A DNA stretch of 64,000 nucleotides from an uncultured Clostridia bacterium (GTDB lineage: Bacteria > Bacillota > Clostridia > UBA1381): positions 1 to 64,000 of the forward strand of contig CANRAG010000001.1 of the NCBI GenBank assembly GCA_947628515.1, given 5' to 3'. Both the position numbers and the translations under genes were made by a program. Each line of letters begins with the position of its first letter. The first letter of the stretch is position 1. Positions 47,247-61,819 of this stretch are shown here, one piece after another. The notes beneath the pieces were generated by a model that was not told the DNA's origin, did no database searches, and worked only from the letters and a program-made list of their open reading frames with translations.

Positions 47247-48497
47247 ATGAAATGTAAAAAAGTATTGGCGGCTCTTACAGCCGCGGCTGTTGTGTCGGGA
47301 GTACCGATGATTTCGGCGCTGGCGAAACCGCAGACAATCACGGAGTATGATTTTGATAAATCAACGCCGGAGGGCCATAAATACGATGTTAAAGAAAATA
47401 ATGTGAACAAAGACTACGGTAATTCGGCATGGTTGAAGGAAGCGGAGAATAATAATGGCGCAAATCAGCTTAATGTTAACGTTCCGTCTGCTGCCGGTTA
47501 TAAGAGCGCGGTATTTAGCTTTGAAGCGGGAAGAGCTAAGTCAACGGGAGCTTTAAGGCTGGTATTGGTCGGTTCCGATAATACAGCATATAATATAGTT
47601 CAAATTGACAGTGGCGGAGGCTCATTGCTGAAATTTGACATTTCTCCCGATAATACAATAAAATCACCTGTTGTATCAGATAAGGTCTATGCTAATGTCG
47701 GATATATGCATAAAATCACTTGCGTTGTAACGGGCAACAAATTTGATGTGTATATCGGCAAAGGGGCGGACAAAGCAATTACCGGTGCTTATAGAGATTT
47801 AACATCAAACGAAGCTTACGGCTATGAACTGTACAGCGGAACCCTGCCGGACGGCGTAAACGTAAAAACCTTCAGGCTCCAGGAATGGCCCGGCGGAAAC
47901 GAGTCTTGGAAGTGGATGATAGATAATGTATCCCTGACAGCAGACTACGGCAGCGATGATGAAATCAATACGCTGGACAAACTCAAGTCAGCTATAGAGA
48001 GCGGACAAGGGGAAATTACAATACCTGACAATACGAAGCTGAGCATAGCAGCCGGTCCCGATGCGGCGTCGCAAACAGCCCTTCGTTTAAATGCGAATCA
48101 AAGGATAATCGTTCCCGAAGGCAGCTCTATAGTGGGTTACGGTCATATTTACGCACCTGAAGGCTCCGCTGTTGTTTATAAGAAAACTGAAAACGACAAA
48201 TCGGTCGATTACTCCTTCACCGGTATATTGACCTATAACAAAGATGCGTCTAAGCCGCAACCGATAAATAACAATACTATGTATGTATCATCGGACGGAA
48301 TGACGGGCTTTATAAGGTGCGTAAAAGAAAACTTTGGGGATATAAAAACGGTGACAATAAAAACATCGGACAAAGGAACATTAAACTTATCATTGGAAGA
48401 ACGGTTCCCAACGGTGACGGGCGACAGCAGTGTTGTATTCGGATTGATAATCACGGACGCGGGAAACACAAAGATCACATCGGTTACGGTAAAATAA
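47247..48497 (+). CDS. Secreted beta-rich protein, function unknown
   Basis: Secreted protein of 416 residues with a signal peptide (about 1-26, ending SALA). The first 230 residues look like a laminin-G/concanavalin-type sandwich: ITEYDFDKSTPEG, ALRLVLVGSDNTAYNIVQID, KITCVVTGNKFDVYIG, WKWMIDNVSLTADYG. The rest is strand-rich with no catalytic pattern that I recognise. GGAGGAAC precedes ATG 47247. Only 18 bases separate it from the SLH protein, and 22 bases lie between its stop and the 53-residue peptide gene. A role in polysaccharide binding is plausible from the fold and operon, nothing more. Confidence 0.7.
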   Translation: MKCKKVLAALTAAAVVSGVPMISALAKPQTITEYDFDKSTPEGHKYDVKENNVNKDYGNSAWLKEAENNNGANQLNVNVPSAAGYKSAVFSFEAGRAKSTGALRLVLVGSDNTAYNIVQIDSGGGSLLKFDISPDNTIKSPVVSDKVYANVGYMHKITCVVTGNKFDVYIGKGADKAITGAYRDLTSNEAYGYELYSGTLPDGVNVKTFRLQEWPGGNESWKWMIDNVSLTADYGSDDEINTLDKLKSAIESGQGEITIPDNTKLSIAAGPDAASQTALRLNANQRIIVPEGSSIVGYGHIYAPEGSAVVYKKTENDKSVDYSFTGILTYNKDASKPQPINNNTMYVSSDGMTGFIRCVKENFGDIKTVTIKTSDKGTLNLSLEERFPTVTGDSSVVFGLIITDAGNTKITSVTVK

Positions 48498-48519
48498 GAT
48501 AAAAGGAGTGACTATTATT

Positions 48520-48681
48520 ATGAAAAAGACATATGAGCTTCCCGAAATGAAGGTACAGAAATTCCGCGGCGAGATCGTCACAGCCTCGGGCAAGTTTGCC
48601 GCTTATGATGGCGCGGTAAAGGACATAACCGGCGTTGATAATTTATTTACGGTGAAATTAAGCGATATACTTATCTATTAA
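48520..48681 (+). CDS. Small peptide of 53 residues, function unknown
   Basis: Short gene with a clear ribosome site (AAGGAG at 48503-48508) and ATG 48520, ending TAA 48679-48681. The product starts MKKTYELPEMKVQKFRGEIV, continues TASGKFAAYDGAVKD and ends SDILIY. It has no signal peptide or membrane segment. The leader-like part (charged start, PEM-V--F pattern, ending TASG) resembles short unannotated peptides I recall from gut Clostridia, but I cannot verify that. It is not an obvious toxin, antitoxin or ribosomal protein. It lies in the GAG operon 22 bases after a secreted protein gene and 23 bases before another. Coding is supported by spacing, ribosome site and codon choice like its neighbours. 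Confidence 0.72.
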   Translation: MKKTYELPEMKVQKFRGEIVTASGKFAAYDGAVKDITGVDNLFTVKLSDILIY

Positions 48682-55101: not shown

Positions 55102-57654
55102 ATGTTACTATCATTTGAGCAGGAAAGCATTTTAAACTATATAGAGACTCAGGGAAAGGCGGAGCTTTCCGACGAGCATAAAAAGGACGGCGGGTATTCC
55201 TTGAAATGGACACACCGAAAGGGTGATACTCTGCGTCTTGATGTTCCGATAGGCTATAAAACTCCGCCGTCTGACGGGAAGGACAGCAGAGTTCCGGGCT
55301 GGGGAGTATATATATATTCCGACGGCGCGGAGCAGACTCTTACTGTTGAGTTTTTAAAAGGTGAAAGAGTATGCGCCGGTTTTGAAATTTATGTGAATTT
55401 TAAGGGCTGGCGCAGTCTTGCGCTCCGCTTTGATTACGATATGAACGGGAAAGCGGAGGAGGATATGGATGCGATGAGGATAATGGCGGGTAATGACGGC
55501 TGTCTGTGGTTTGACAGGCTCATAACCTGCAATCTTTTTCCGTTCCGTTCGCCTGTCGCAAGCTTCCAACTTCCGTTCGTTAAGGATTATTACGGAAATA
55601 ACAGCTTTTTGGCGTTGTATAACAGTGTGCCGTCGGTATGCAGCAGAGCCTCGTATGATATGTATTATATACGCGAAAAATATACCCGATATTTATTGAG
55701 TATAGATAAGTATGACATAAGCTATGAGGAGCTGCGCCGCAGGTTGGAGGAATGGAAGGACAGACCTATAGTTTACAAGCGGGCGCTTGAACTATGCGAC
55801 GGTATGGATAATACGGCGGAATACAATTTTGTGACGCTGCGCGATGCGGCGGAGACCTTGTTCGCCCTTGCGCGCCTGTATAAAACCGAAAAACGCGGCG
55901 GCGGGGAATATATATCGCTCATCAGAAAGATGATAGACGAGGGCTTCGCGGCGGGGTCGTCAATGGGAGTTATGCATCACATTGATTACAGTCTGAGGAT
56001 GCTCTATCCGTCAGTGTTTCTTATGGAGACAGAGCTGCGCCGCGAGGGACTTTTTGACGCTGTGTCAAAGGCGATATGCTGGTTTTCCGGCTTCGGCACT
56101 GTTTTTGCTCCCGCCGAAATTACAACTGCGGACACTTATAATACCCGTTCGCAGGCATTTTTGATATACGCTCTCCTTTCGGGGACGGATGAATATATAC
56201 AGGCGGTTAGTGATTGGATAAACCGTACTACGGAGTATACGAACGGTTTACTCGGACTTTTAAAGCCCGACGGAAGCATGTATCATCACTGCAATCATTA
56301 TACAGCCTATGCCTCTGACGGACTGACCGGTCTTATGCCGGTAATTTATTCTCTAAGCGGCACATCCTACGAAATCTCATCGGCCGCCGCGGAGCGGATA
56401 AATAAGGTTATCGGCAATATGATTTTTTATACCGAAAAACGTGTGTATCCCATAGCGATGTCGGGGAGGCATCCGGACGGAACATGGGCTATAGATAAAG
56501 CGTTGTTTGACGTATGGGAGAAATGCACATACGATACCGATAAATATAAAAAGCGTATGGGACAGCTTACCATGAACAGGGCGTGCGCCGCGTTTCATCG
56601 CGAAAACGGTTTCATGGCGTCTGTTAAAGGATTTTCAAGGTATCTTTGGGGCAATGAGTCGTACATTGCGGATAATCTGTACGGAAGATATATTTCTTAT
56701 GGGTATCTTGAAGTTTTTAAGGGTGATATGAAAAGCTCCGGTTTCTCCCATGACGGCTGGGATTGGGCGATGTTCCCCGGTACTACGGCGGAGTGGCTGC
56801 CCGTATCGGAAATGCGTTCAAAAATATATAATCTTGACAAGGACAGCGCTTTTGAAGAAATGCTTATCTCGGATCGCGGCTTTGCCGGCGGCGTGGACGA
56901 CGGTCAAAACGGGTTATTCTCAATGGAGCTTGCCGGACACCCCAAATATGATAAAACATTTTTCGCGAAAAAATCATATTTCTTTGTCGATGGCGCTGTT
57001 ATATGCATGGGAAGTGATATAAGCAGCAGCTCCGGCAATCCGGTATACACAACCGTTATGCAGCGAAGCGGCAACGCGGTAAAAATGAAAGACAAAATGT
57101 TCGTTGATGAAACCGGAACGGGGTATTACATAGTCAGAGGACATTTCTCCGTTTCAACCGGCCCTCAGCTGTCACAGGATGAAAAGGGAAGGGGAGAAAC
57201 ACAGGGAGTATTCGGTAAGGTGTGGATCGACCACGGCATAAACCCGAAAAATTCCGACTATGAATATGTGATTGTCCCGAACGGACAGGAGGCGCCCCGG
57301 TATTCCGTACTGTGCTGCGATAATGTGTGTCACGCGATACGCTGTGGCGGAAAGCTGTACGCAGCGGTATTTGATCCGAGCCGGTTTGGGGGAGCGGGAG
57401 AGCTTTTGTCGGTATCTCATCCCGTATTGATAATTATGGATAAAACACAAATCAGCGTATGCGAGCCCGATCTGGGTTTGTACGGTTATGACGGCGGTCA
57501 ATACGGCAAAAACGGGGAAAGAAAAGAAGTAAGCATATATTCCCGTGATTGGATTGCAAATGACGTTAAAAAATATAATATAACAATTGAAACCACCTCC
57601 GGAATTCACTCTCTTGCCGCAGCCGGAGGAGATATTTATAAGCTTACACGGTGA
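55102..57654 (+). CDS. Chondroitinase ABC-like PL8 lyase without a signal peptide
   Basis: PL8 protein of 850 residues of the chondroitin-sulfate ABC lyase type. The N-terminal lyase domain starts at once (LLSFEQESILNYIE, then DGGYSLKWTHRKGD), so no export signal exists. The toroid carries His396 and Tyr403 in DGSMYHHCNHYTAY, matching the spacing of the catalytic His and Tyr of chondroitinase ABC, and Arg456 in MSGRHPDG. The C-terminal half has WDWAMFPGTTAEWLP and KKSYFFVDGAVICMGSDIS. It starts six bases after the previous stop and has no obvious ribosome site, which suggests coupled translation. It is either cytosolic, acting on imported fragments, or would be exported only as a read-through fusion with the secreted PL8 upstream. 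Ends overlapping the sulfatase region. Confidence 0.85.
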   Translation: MLLSFEQESILNYIETQGKAELSDEHKKDGGYSLKWTHRKGDTLRLDVPIGYKTPPSDGKDSRVPGWGVYIYSDGAEQTLTVEFLKGERVCAGFEIYVNFKGWRSLALRFDYDMNGKAEEDMDAMRIMAGNDGCLWFDRLITCNLFPFRSPVASFQLPFVKDYYGNNSFLALYNSVPSVCSRASYDMYYIREKYTRYLLSIDKYDISYEELRRRLEEWKDRPIVYKRALELCDGMDNTAEYNFVTLRDAAETLFALARLYKTEKRGGGEYISLIRKMIDEGFAAGSSMGVMHHIDYSLRMLYPSVFLMETELRREGLFDAVSKAICWFSGFGTVFAPAEITTADTYNTRSQAFLIYALLSGTDEYIQAVSDWINRTTEYTNGLLGLLKPDGSMYHHCNHYTAYASDGLTGLMPVIYSLSGTSYEISSAAAERINKVIGNMIFYTEKRVYPIAMSGRHPDGTWAIDKALFDVWEKCTYDTDKYKKRMGQLTMNRACAAFHRENGFMASVKGFSRYLWGNESYIADNLYGRYISYGYLEVFKGDMKSSGFSHDGWDWAMFPGTTAEWLPVSEMRSKIYNLDKDSAFEEMLISDRGFAGGVDDGQNGLFSMELAGHPKYDKTFFAKKSYFFVDGAVICMGSDISSSSGNPVYTTVMQRSGNAVKMKDKMFVDETGTGYYIVRGHFSVSTGPQLSQDEKGRGETQGVFGKVWIDHGINPKNSDYEYVIVPNGQEAPRYSVLCCDNVCHAIRCGGKLYAAVFDPSRFGGAGELLSVSHPVLIIMDKTQISVCEPDLGLYGYDGGQYGKNGERKEVSIYSRDWIANDVKKYNITIETTSGIHSLAAAGGDIYKLTR

Positions 57655-57671
57655 AAGGATGCAGCGGAGTA

Positions 57672-59162
57672 ATGAAGGAAAGACCGAATATTGTTTTTGT
57701 GATGTCCGATCAGCATCGGCGTCAGGCGATGGGCTTCTGGCAGAAAGAGGAATACAGAGAATGTCTTAACGGAGCGAGCGATCCGGTAAAAACGCCAAAT
57801 ATAGACAGACTGGCAGACGAAGGCGTGGTCGCGTCTCAGGCGTTTTCAAGCTATCCTGTGTGCAGCCCGTACAGGGCAATGCTTTTTTCGGGGTTGTTTC
57901 CCGAACAGAACGGGGTATGGCATAATTGTGCGCCGTGGCGGGATTACGAGCTGAAGGACGAAATCGAAACCTTTACAGATGTGCTTGCAGGCAACGGCTA
58001 TGATGTCGGTTATGTGGGAAAATGGCATCTGGAAGCTCCAAGACCGGCGTTTAATAAAAACGGTATTTATGTCGGAGAGGACGCGGAATGCGAAAAGTTC
58101 TTTCCGAACGGAGCCGATAAAGACGATACGGACTGCTGGGATACTCTTATCAGAAAGGATCGCAGCAGAGGGATAAATTATTTGTATATGTACAATACAT
58201 GGAATGTTTTCCGCGCAAACGATGGCACTCCCGAGCTGAGTAAGCCTCATTGCTGGGACAGGGATTATAACAGGATAACAGCGCCCGACGGCACATGGCT
58301 GCCGGAGTTTGAAACGGAGCTTGCGCTGCGCTATATCGTAAATGATAATAATGAGCGTGACGCGAAGAAGCCGTACTGTCTGTTTGTAAGTTATAACCCG
58401 CCGCATCTGCCGTATAACAGCCGAGAGGATACCGACTATGAGGCGTATGATAATTATTATTCTCCGGAAAAAAAGCCGGATTACCGCGAGCTGCTTACGC
58501 GTCCGAATGTCAGTCCCGCAACGGAAAACTTTGAGGACAATGTGAGGGTGTATTTTTCGCATGTAACGGGTATTGACAGGCAGGTCGGAAGACTTATGGA
58601 CGCGGTCGATAAAAGCGGCGCCGCGGATAATACAATATTTGTATTCACCTCCGATCACGGTGAAATGATGGGAAGTCATAAGCTGATGTCAAAGAATGTT
58701 ATATACGAAGAATCCGTTGGAATTCCATTTATCATTCGTTATCCGCGCAGACTGAACCACAAAACCGACAATCTGCTTCTTATGGGGGTGGATATTATGC
58801 CGACAATACTTTCGCTTGCCGGTGTGCCTGTGCCGGAGCCTACAGAGGGCAGTGATTATTCCGCCGTGCTTGAGGGCAGCTCGGAAAAGCGTCCGAAATC
58901 CGCATTTTTTGTGCAGCTTGATACAAAAGGCGTAAGAACGGACAGGTATGTGATGTCTGTTCGGGAAGATACACAGGAAAATTACAAAGAGCCGGTGCTG
59001 TTTGATTTGAAAACAGATCCGTATCAAATGAATAATCTGGAGTTTTCTTCGATTTCGGCGGATGATATGATGATGCTCAGAAGCGAACTCGGCTATTGGC
59101 TTAAAAAGTCAAATGATCCGTGGTATCAAAGAAGACTTTACGATAACTTTATAATTTATTAA
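57672..59162 (+). CDS. Cytosolic Cys-type sulfatase 1
   Basis: Sulfatase of about 496 residues acting on sulfate esters, with no signal peptide. ATG 57672 is chosen because the family start MKERPNIVFVMSDQ begins there and AAAGGA lies 12 bases upstream; a GTG at 57651 overlapping the previous stop is the alternative. Metal-binding DQHRRQ follows, then the formylglycine motif YPVCSPYRAMLFSGLFP with Cys64, which must be oxidised. Later metal and substrate motifs: YVGKWHLEAPRP and FTSDHGEMMGSHKL. The maturating radical SAM enzyme is encoded two genes later. Substrate is likely a GalNAc or GlcNAc sulfate; position cannot be read from sequence. Confidence 0.9.
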   Translation: MKERPNIVFVMSDQHRRQAMGFWQKEEYRECLNGASDPVKTPNIDRLADEGVVASQAFSSYPVCSPYRAMLFSGLFPEQNGVWHNCAPWRDYELKDEIETFTDVLAGNGYDVGYVGKWHLEAPRPAFNKNGIYVGEDAECEKFFPNGADKDDTDCWDTLIRKDRSRGINYLYMYNTWNVFRANDGTPELSKPHCWDRDYNRITAPDGTWLPEFETELALRYIVNDNNERDAKKPYCLFVSYNPPHLPYNSREDTDYEAYDNYYSPEKKPDYRELLTRPNVSPATENFEDNVRVYFSHVTGIDRQVGRLMDAVDKSGAADNTIFVFTSDHGEMMGSHKLMSKNVIYEESVGIPFIIRYPRRLNHKTDNLLLMGVDIMPTILSLAGVPVPEPTEGSDYSAVLEGSSEKRPKSAFFVQLDTKGVRTDRYVMSVREDTQENYKEPVLFDLKTDPYQMNNLEFSSISADDMMMLRSELGYWLKKSNDPWYQRRLYDNFIIY

Positions 59163-59183: not shown

Positions 59184-60704
59184 ATGAAAAAACAACTAAT
59201 ATTAATTATGGTGGATACGCAGAGAACCGATATGCTCGCATGCTACGGTAATGACGGAATGTTCACGCCCAACCTGGACGCCTTGGCGGAACAGGGCGTG
59301 GTTTATGACAGAGCATACACATGTCAGCCGGTATGCGGACCGGCTCGTTCCGCGATATTTACGGGCTTATTTCCACATTCAAACGGTGTGTGGGCAAACA
59401 ACCTGGCGCTGGGCGATAATGTAAAAACGATTGGGCAGCGTCTTACCGATAACGGAATACATGCGGCATACATCGGCAAGTGGCATCTGGACGGCGGAGA
59501 TTATTTCGGGCTTGGGCGGTGCCCGGACGGCTGGGATGAAAAGTACTGGTATGATATGCGCTGTTATCTTGAAGAAATGACCGAGGAGGACAGATACCGT
59601 TCCCGTCAGGATGATACGGAGGATATACGCGCGTCTTTCACCTATGCCAATAAATGCTCGAATAAAGCAATTTCATTTCTTGAAGAATACGGCGACGACG
59701 ACTTTTTCCTTGTCGTGTCTTACGATGAGCCCCACGGCCCTTCGCTTTCTCCCGAACCTTTTTCTTCCATGTACGATAATTACCGTTTCCCGAAAAAAGA
59801 CAATGTATGGGATGATTTGGAGAACAAGCCGGAGCATCAGAGAATATGGGCAGGGGACGCGGCGGCGGAAAACAAGGATGAGCTTGATATTACAAAGCGC
59901 TCTCTTATAAGCTGCAATTCATATGTGGACGGCGAGATAGGCAGAGTGCTTGAACAGATAAAAAAGAAGGCGCCCGACGCCATGATATTATATACTTCCG
60001 ATCACGGAGACATGATGCGCTCTCACAGTCTTTCCGAAAAAGGCCCCGCCGCGTATGAGGAGATTTGTCATATTCCGTTCATTATAAAGGATAATATTCA
60101 TGCGGGTTTAAGATATCCGTATCCCGTATCGCACATAGATATTGTGCCCACAATACTGGAGTACATGGGGCTGCCTGTTCCCAAGTTGCTGGAGGGCAAA
60201 TGTTTATTGCCGACACTTGAGGACGCGCGGCAGAAGATTAATGATAATGTGTTTATTGAATTTGGCAGATATGAGATTGATCATGACGGCTTTGGCGGAT
60301 TTCAGCCAATGCGCGCCGTGTTTGACGGAAGATATAAGCTTGTTATCAATCTTTTGTCCTCGGACGAACTGTACGATCTTCAGTCAGATCCCGATGAACT
60401 CAGTAATTTGATAAATGACGATGCGTACAGCGGTGTACGCGATGCTTTGCACGATCGGCTTTTGGACTGGCAAAACGATACGCGTGACCCGTTCAGAGGC
60501 TATTATTGGGAAAATCGCCCATGGCGGAAAACTGCCCGAAAGCCGACATGGGATTATACGGGCTTCACGCGCCAACGCGAAAATGAGGAGTATGAGCCGA
60601 GACAGCTTGATTATTCAACGGGATTGGAAATGGAATCAGCGGTCAGAAAGAAAAAGGATTTGCCCGAATATATCCGGTTTGACAATGGTGAAAAGAAGCT
60701 GTGA
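59184..60704 (+). CDS. Cytosolic Cys-type sulfatase 2
   Basis: Sulfatase of 506 residues, also without signal peptide. Landmarks: LILIMVDTQRTDMLACYG metal loop, formylglycine motif QPVCGPARSAIFTGLFP with Cys51, YIGKWHLDGGDYFG, and YTSDHGDMMRSHSLSEKG. It differs clearly from sulfatase 1 in the regions between motifs, so the pair probably cut different sulfate positions. The ribosome site before ATG 59184 is weak (AAAGACGG). The stop overlaps the GTG start of the radical SAM gene by four bases, tying production of the sulfatase to its activator. Confidence 0.9.
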   Translation: MKKQLILIMVDTQRTDMLACYGNDGMFTPNLDALAEQGVVYDRAYTCQPVCGPARSAIFTGLFPHSNGVWANNLALGDNVKTIGQRLTDNGIHAAYIGKWHLDGGDYFGLGRCPDGWDEKYWYDMRCYLEEMTEEDRYRSRQDDTEDIRASFTYANKCSNKAISFLEEYGDDDFFLVVSYDEPHGPSLSPEPFSSMYDNYRFPKKDNVWDDLENKPEHQRIWAGDAAAENKDELDITKRSLISCNSYVDGEIGRVLEQIKKKAPDAMILYTSDHGDMMRSHSLSEKGPAAYEEICHIPFIIKDNIHAGLRYPYPVSHIDIVPTILEYMGLPVPKLLEGKCLLPTLEDARQKINDNVFIEFGRYEIDHDGFGGFQPMRAVFDGRYKLVINLLSSDELYDLQSDPDELSNLINDDAYSGVRDALHDRLLDWQNDTRDPFRGYYWENRPWRKTARKPTWDYTGFTRQRENEEYEPRQLDYSTGLEMESAVRKKKDLPEYIRFDNGEKKL

Positions 60705-61819
60705 AAAATTTAACTGTTCTTATAAAGCCCGCGTCCGATCTCTGCAATATGCGGTGTGAATACTGCTTTTACCGCGGCGCCGCAAAGCGCCGCAAAATAG
60801 ACGGCTGCGGTATAATGAGTCCTAAAACGCTTGAAAATCTGGTAAGAAAGGCTTTTGATTTCGCGGAGGAAGGCTGTTCATTCTGCTTTCAGGGAGGCGA
60901 ACCCACGCTTGCCGGCTTGAGCTTTTATCAGGAGTTTGACGGGCTTTTAAAAAAATACAACACGCGCAAAATACCTGTATTCAAAGCAATGCAGACAAAC
61001 GGATATTTGATAGACAAGCACTGGGCGCGGTATCTGCATGATAGGAACTTTCTGGTCGGTTTGTCTCTTGACGGCACAGAGGATTTGCACGACAGATTTC
61101 GGCGCGGCAGTGACGGAAGGGGAACATTTTCCGATGTTATGCGCGCTGCGGCGGTTATGAACGAGTACCGTGTCCGGTATAACATATTGAGTGTTATAAC
61201 CGATAATAACGCATGCAGAGGAAAGGAAATATACTCCTTTTTTAAAAAAAGAGGGTTTATGTATCTTCAATTTATAAAATGTATAGATTCCTCGCAGGAC
61301 GGTCAAAAGAAATCTTTTCTTGCTCCCCTGAATTGGGGAAGGTTTATGAATGAGGTTTTTGACGAATATTATCGGGACTTTCTGGCGGGTACGCCTGTAA
61401 GCATAAGAGAATTTGACAATTTTATTTCGCTTTTGCTCGGATATCCTCCCGAGCAGTGCGGAATGAGCGGGGTGTGCTCGGGATACTTAACCGTTGAAAG
61501 CGATGGGAGCATATATCCGTGTGATTTTTATGTTAACGATGCATGGAGAATGGGGAATATAAACCAAAACAGTATCGACGAATTGCTTAACAGCATCGAG
61601 CTGAAAAAATTTATTGAAATTTCGATACAAAGGGACAGCGAATGTCTTAAATGCAAATGGCTGAAGCTTTGCAGAGGAGGCTGCCGCAGGTATCGGGATA
61701 CTTCCGGAAACGGAGAACTTAATCTGAACAAATTCTGCGAAGGATACAAGCTGTTTTTTGAACATTCCTATGACAAAATGGCACATATGGCATTATTGCT
61801 CTCCGGACGGAGACCTTAA
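60701..61819 (+). CDS. Anaerobic sulfatase-maturating radical SAM enzyme (anSME)
   Basis: Radical SAM protein of 372 residues that converts the active-site cysteine of sulfatases into formylglycine without oxygen. The SAM cluster motif is SDLCNMRCEYCFYRG with Cys15, Cys19 and Cys22. GGEPTLAG binds SAM. The C-terminal SPASM-type region shows VCSGYLTVESDGSIYPCDFY and CLKCKWLKLCRGGCRRYR, ligands of two auxiliary clusters. GTG 60701 overlaps the previous stop (GTGA), indicating coupling. Its position after two Cys-type sulfatases makes the anSME assignment much better than a peptide maturase, though the 53-residue peptide gene in the same operon keeps a second role conceivable. Confidence 0.93.
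   Translation: MKNLTVLIKPASDLCNMRCEYCFYRGAAKRRKIDGCGIMSPKTLENLVRKAFDFAEEGCSFCFQGGEPTLAGLSFYQEFDGLLKKYNTRKIPVFKAMQTNGYLIDKHWARYLHDRNFLVGLSLDGTEDLHDRFRRGSDGRGTFSDVMRAAAVMNEYRVRYNILSVITDNNACRGKEIYSFFKKRGFMYLQFIKCIDSSQDGQKKSFLAPLNWGRFMNEVFDEYYRDFLAGTPVSIREFDNFISLLLGYPPEQCGMSGVCSGYLTVESDGSIYPCDFYVNDAWRMGNINQNSIDELLNSIELKKFIEISIQRDSECLKCKWLKLCRGGCRRYRDTSGNGELNLNKFCEGYKLFFEHSYDKMAHMALLLSGRRP

Follow-up and report, generated by a model that had tools for sequence, protein, structure and literature searches.

Three described systems lie closest to the locus reported here. The linear polyphosphorylated peptide (LPP) system is encoded by lppAKBSDN of Paenibacillus alginolyticus (Nat Commun, 20 May 2026; PMC13381572); its kinase LppK polyphosphorylates Ser3 of the precursor LppA, the signal-peptidase-like LppS cuts after Thr(-1) with help from the RRE, and Asp70 hydrogen-bonds the leader Tyr in the crystal structure of LppB. 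The same paper gives 1 to 3 precursors per cluster, maps the family on Bacilli genomes, and nowhere uses the word "secreted" (PMC13381572). In phosphorylated lasso peptides, the HprK-like kinase BsfK phosphorylates Ser3 of a precursor with a YxxPxL leader, a reaction accelerated by the RRE, and the motif H...G-x-G-K-S...DD is functional in BsfK (PMC10368454). The third, SynChlorMet ScmC/HprK-related kinase A, is represented by TIGR04249 and TIGR04352. RRE-Finder lists ~8000 discrete lasso-type RREs, about half of them without lasso peptidase and cyclase alongside (PMC7470986). Here, we report a 53-residue peptide from Clostridia that is, with good probability, the ribosomally made precursor of a kinase-type RiPP system, guided by an RRE, served in trans, and encoded beside a secreted partner.

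The window analyzed is a 64,000-nucleotide stretch of DNA (positions 1 to 64,000, forward strand, of contig CANRAG010000001.1, assembly GCA_947628515.1) from an uncultured gut bacterium of the Clostridia (UBA1381). Feature coordinates are collected in Table 1. The peptide, MKKTYELPEMKVQKFRGEIVTASGKFAAYDGAVKDITGVDNLFTVKLSDILIY, is the translation of an open reading frame of 53 codons (ATG at 48520, stop at 48679-48681); TASG occurs within it and its final residue is Tyr, all as stated in the initial annotation. The good ribosome site and compact spacing claimed there also hold (AAGGAG 11 nt 5′ of the ATG; the preceding gene is 22 bp away and the following one 23 bp). Searches of Pfam and NCBIfam returned no family matching the peptide or its relatives, and AlphaFold2 modeled it as disordered (pLDDT 54, with a shallow alignment underneath).

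Table 1. Coordinates of the peptide gene, its neighbors in the window, and related loci elsewhere (G000, genome of the window; L, other loci)
Feature	Position	Strand	Basis or remark
Partner gene, secreted protein, 416 aa	47247-48497	+	Signal peptide; no curated-level Pfam domain
Partner C-terminal beta domain	48291-48494	+	Profile E 4.2e-12; common to partners of 22/24 own-genome peptide genes
Shine-Dalgarno AAGGAG	48503-48508	+	SD-like site in family members
Precursor peptide gene (probable), 53 aa	48520-48681	+	ORF; 24 paralogues in own genome
Leader region (predicted), residues 1-21	48520-48582	+	YxxP (Y5, P8), last residue T21; conserved columns P, F, E, T, S, compared with PMC13381572
Predicted core, residues 22-53	48583-48678	+	
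S23, conserved Ser beside the predicted leader/core border	codon 48586-48588	+	
Sulfatase	57651-59162		
Sulfatase	59184-60704		
Radical SAM enzyme	60701-61819		
HprK-like kinase, 235 aa	G000:C12:29838-30545		Contig other than that of the peptide
Stand-alone PqqD-type RRE, ~90 residues	G000:C12:30563-30832		Directly after the kinase
S-layer-homology-like neighbors of kinase-RRE loci	L180:6025-7035; L181:9166-10194; L182:5880-6914; L184:6041-7063; L186:5873-7003; L187:8816-9943; L191:3973-4968; L258:4196-5161; L259:3422-4348		By eye
Partner C-terminal domain remnant	L065:5406-5645		Decayed
Two 215-aa ORFs	L082:3560-4207; L082:4702-5349		500 bp apart

A family profile made from eleven members, four of them own-genome matches, gave 24 matches in the genome of the window (E ≤ 4.5e-5; window copy, 1.6e-20), 33 in genome G013, and 28 in G024. 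Of 70 genomes from the same taxonomic family, 38 had matches. Single-protein searches recovered weak paralogues in the own genome and no matches in the named genomes scanned; a sub-family alignment search gave 11 loci. The initial annotation had named lack of conservation in relatives as grounds for dropping the gene, and conservation is what these counts show. Members share the leader motif [YF]xxPx[ML]x[IV]xxFxxE[ND][IV][IV]Tx[SG]; the pattern PEMxVxxF...TASG proposed earlier is present in the window copy, but it is one case of this broader motif. Conservation resides in the N-terminal 25 residues, with Pro, Phe, Glu, Thr, and Ser nearly fixed, and the C-terminal half is variable, acidic on average, and often closed by Phe or another hydrophobic residue. 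The suggestion of a leader-like N-terminal half on a precursor peptide is well supported.

The border between leader and core was drawn after T21 from LPP and lasso precursors, and by the same analogy S23 is the putative phosphorylation site. Ser or Gly stands two residues past the Thr position in 96/96 motif-matched members (the search pattern requires it), and all 14 members with Gly there have a Ser or Thr within the next two residues. An SD-like site precedes 91 of the 92 members examined (AGGAGG in 56). Paralogue differences around the conserved Pro number 1816 at the third codon position versus 1144 at position 1 and 1070 at position 2, as expected of a translated, selected peptide. A chance or decaying open reading frame would account for the shortness of the gene but not for a profile E value of 1e-20, a conserved ribosome site and place, or substitutions mostly at third positions; that reading is already refuted by conservation, and 48520-48681 is a real gene. 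Elsewhere, tandem peptide genes follow one secreted protein (L085, L086, L093, and L099), and some family members (L148, L149, L151, L152, and L265) have only 34 to 37 residues, with strongly acidic cores of ~12 to 16 residues.

The gene tends to sit directly behind one for a secreted protein. This could be evaluated for 86 members, drawn from the own family and several further families of Clostridia; in 81 of them a same-strand upstream gene lies at −11 to 38 bp. By a crude rule, 69 of these 81 partners have a signal peptide, and the remainder are mostly truncated at a contig end or of uncertain start. A link to flanking secreted proteins, raised in the initial annotation, is real for the upstream gene. 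A profile of the partner C-terminal domain gave 23 strong matches in the own genome, 22 directly 5′ of a peptide gene and 1 in a tandem copy; these partners were its training set, and its leave-one-out sensitivity is 11/22, so a few unpaired partner-type proteins could be missed. AlphaFold2 modeled the domain as all-beta, at low confidence. Most partners have no known domain, and some carry adhesion-type or CBM domains. In the window and at 22 other places in this genome, the shared domain, which has no Pfam model, ends exactly at the protein C-terminus and could serve in sorting or docking. A decayed remnant of it ~1 kb from an intact cassette (L065) suggests that cassettes have been duplicated and lost.

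The GAG operon of the window (PL8, GH88, two sulfatases, and a sulfatase maturase) is an incidental setting for the peptide gene, because the genome has about 24 copies of this two-gene cassette and the family is not tied to that operon. Both sulfatases carry Cys-type formylglycine motifs (CSPYR and CGPAR), fitting the adjacent maturase. As a modifier of the peptide, the initial annotation had pointed to the radical SAM enzyme that closes the operon; the two share that operon, and the enzyme has a SPASM domain. It is an anaerobic sulfatase maturase, scoring above the TIGR03942 cut-off and adjoining the two sulfatases, and the remaining 23 peptide copies lie on other contigs; modification of the peptide by this enzyme is extremely improbable. 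Besides the maturase, the only SPASM match in the genome is a 457-residue protein that also occurs in genomes without peptides, so no dedicated peptide-modifying radical SAM enzyme was found there.

A maturation partner is likely found in an HprK-like kinase and a PqqD-type RRE encoded together on another contig. The kinases of these loci keep the motif H...G-x-G-K-S...DD (catalytic His, Walker-type GxGKS, and Asp-Asp). The closest NCBIfam models are lasso PqqD chaperones for the RRE, and ScmC and HprK-related kinase A for the kinase; every one of these scores falls far short of its cut-off. The closest solved structures to the RRE are TbiB1, LppB (9x8z), PbaB1 (9x90), and TfuB1, all lasso or LPP RREs (profile against LppB 9x8z, E 1e-6). 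Neither an SpI-like peptidase nor an exporter or NTP transferase lies next to the own-genome pair. A secreted protein that by eye resembles S-layer-homology proteins recurs next to kinase-RRE loci, hinting at a surface role. At locus L082, two 215-residue open reading frames have ends that look identical.

Peptide, kinase, and RRE share one cluster in six other lineages (G139, G176, G301, G306, G359, and G109); a signal-peptidase-like protein is also encoded in five of these clusters, and in all six the YxxP peptide is the sole candidate precursor seen. In G139, G176, G301, and G306, which belong to different families, a secreted protein is followed by the peptide (35 to 52 aa), HprK-like kinase, RRE, S26-like peptidase, and then an ABC transporter and/or NTP_transf_5-like protein, with one added small open reading frame separating peptide from kinase in G139. 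The set recurs in G359, where an additional gene lies in the peptide-kinase interval, and G109 has RRE, ABC transporter, secreted protein, peptide, and HprK-like protein in one run. A peptidase, exporter, and NTP transferase, some of them recognized by resemblance in sequence, belong to the clusters of G139, G176, G306, G359, and, in part, G301 and G024.

These gene sets, together with the YxxP leader and a Thr close to the border, would also suit a lasso peptide precursor, as relatives encode a lasso-type discrete RRE, a kinase, an NTP transferase, and an ABC exporter. Yet a B2-type transglutaminase peptidase (PF13471) did not exceed the cut-off in any of 18 genomes, the own one included, no macrolactam cyclase was noticed in any kinase-RRE neighborhood, and a ring acceptor Asp or Glu at core positions 7 to 9 occurs in only 45/96 members. 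A lasso product is strongly disfavored and highly improbable. Only slightly less so is a secreted signal or bacteriocin that is exported by a double-glycine (C39) system with no kinase: the leader/core layout and the resemblance of TASG to a small-residue cleavage site would suit it, but no C39 peptidase is present in the own genome, G013, G024, G025, G027, G109, or G344, and we regard it as very unlikely.

Peptide and RRE also co-occur across genomes. The stand-alone RRE was present in 10/10 peptide-rich genomes tested and absent from 5/8 others, a contrast weakened by most PF05402-negative relatives coming from one genus (g15). Across 391 Clostridia genomes, 118 have the RRE; among peptide carriers the share is 48/53, or 42/43 with a peptide cut-off of E ≤ 1e-3 and 23/23 at 1e-6 (Fisher p about 1e-23 when kinship is ignored). 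The peptide was not detected in 70 of the 118 RRE-positive genomes, using a profile that is short and misses some: G021 has a profile score of zero, yet a peptide was found there behind an 847-residue secreted protein. In the RRE carrier G023, none was detected.

Leader and RRE covary at the contact described for LppB. With Asp at the D70 site of the RRE, Phe replaces the leader Tyr in 0/36 peptides (all 36 have Tyr); with Gly, Ser, His, or Asn at that site, 25 of 52 leaders have Phe. The contrast is also seen inside one genus (G011 against G000, G004, G005, and G006), and in the distant G301 an RRE with Ser goes together with a Phe leader. The count excludes G013, whose RREs include either kind, and the Fisher p of 9e-8 is inflated by shared ancestry; co-occurrence and covariation are both partly confounded by phylogeny. 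We read the covariation as a molecular signature of leader-RRE binding, which it suggests takes place in this family.

A small unmodified protein, acting as a cytosolic chaperone or as an export or assembly partner of the upstream secreted protein, would agree with the near-obligate adjacency of the two genes and with most own-genome copies having no other linked gene. It leaves unexplained the RRE-type YxxP leader, the kinase-RRE clusters of six lineages, the genome-wide co-occurrence, and the leader/RRE covariation, and the disordered model (pLDDT 54, shallow alignment) also speaks against it; we consider it unlikely.

In the RRE-guided kinase system that we favor, the leader (YxxP ... TxS) would be bound by the stand-alone PqqD-like RRE encoded elsewhere in the genome, which would hand the peptide to the HprK-like kinase of the neighboring gene for phosphorylation of the conserved Ser directly past the leader (S23 here). 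We infer this RRE-guided Ser phosphorylation because the kinase motif and the Ser past the Thr are kept and because BsfK and LppK provide precedents. A single kinase-RRE pair would serve ~24 dispersed precursors. In those relatives whose clusters include a peptidase and a transporter, and there only, the signal-peptidase-like protein may cut off the leader and the ABC transporter may export the core. The finished peptide would most likely work outside the cell, with or on its partner, because each precursor gene directly follows its own gene for a secreted beta-domain protein.

More tentatively, and with somewhat less than even confidence, we suggest that these are surface-protein cassettes spread over the genome, that the central kinase-RRE pair supplies every secreted protein with a phosphorylated peptide of its own, and that the peptide is loaded onto, tethers, or signals via the partner C-terminal domain. 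If true, the RiPP system would be a surface-assembly or signaling device, not the maker of one natural product. The family offers a concrete candidate substrate for orphan RREs in Clostridia and would widen LPP-type precursors from a few per cluster to dozens per genome, and its tie to particular secreted proteins is a testable handle on LPP function. Genome mining based on clusters misses precursors that are distant from their enzymes.

Compared with the described systems, the HprK-like and PqqD-like proteins resemble those of SynChlorMet ScmC/HprK-related kinase A, but the kinases score far below the TIGR04249 and TIGR04352 cut-offs. Phosphorylated lasso peptides (BsfA, BsfK, and BsfB1, PMC10368454; paeninodin, PMC5067487) share the YxxPxL leader, an HprK-like kinase sped by an RRE, and a Ser near the leader; in contrast, the family here has no B2-type peptidase, no cyclase noticed nearby, and no conserved ring acceptor. 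LPP shares the YxxP leader, variable C-terminus, discrete PqqD-type RRE, and HprK-like kinase, and it has no cyclase, just as none was noticed near the kinase-RRE loci here; clusters of some relatives also contain genes that resemble those for the LPP peptidase (SpI-like), exporter (MsbA-like), and NTP transferase. The LPP leader consensus YxxPxVLxHQxIxFETxxS is not matched, as VLxHQ and FET are missing; common to both are YxxP and a downstream Phe, Glu, Thr, and Ser, with spacing TxS instead of TxxS, so that the Ser is second after the Thr here and third in LPP. LPP comes from Bacilli, with a clustered gene set and 1 to 3 precursors per cluster, whereas here the hosts are Clostridia, precursors are dispersed (up to 33 per genome, 24 in the own genome) and each follows a secreted-protein gene, and only kinase and RRE lie together in the own genome. 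Because the leader consensus and the small number of clustered precursors both differ, we call the family LPP-like and not a member of LPP, with phosphorylation assigned by analogy. The enzymology would be that already published for LPPs. Against the open-access literature searched, four features are new, although they may be described elsewhere: precursors that are dispersed and probably served in trans, pairing with a secreted protein, a divergent leader, and a branch in Clostridia. If the peptides are indeed its substrates, this would be an unusually large, dispersed version of the LPP kinase system.
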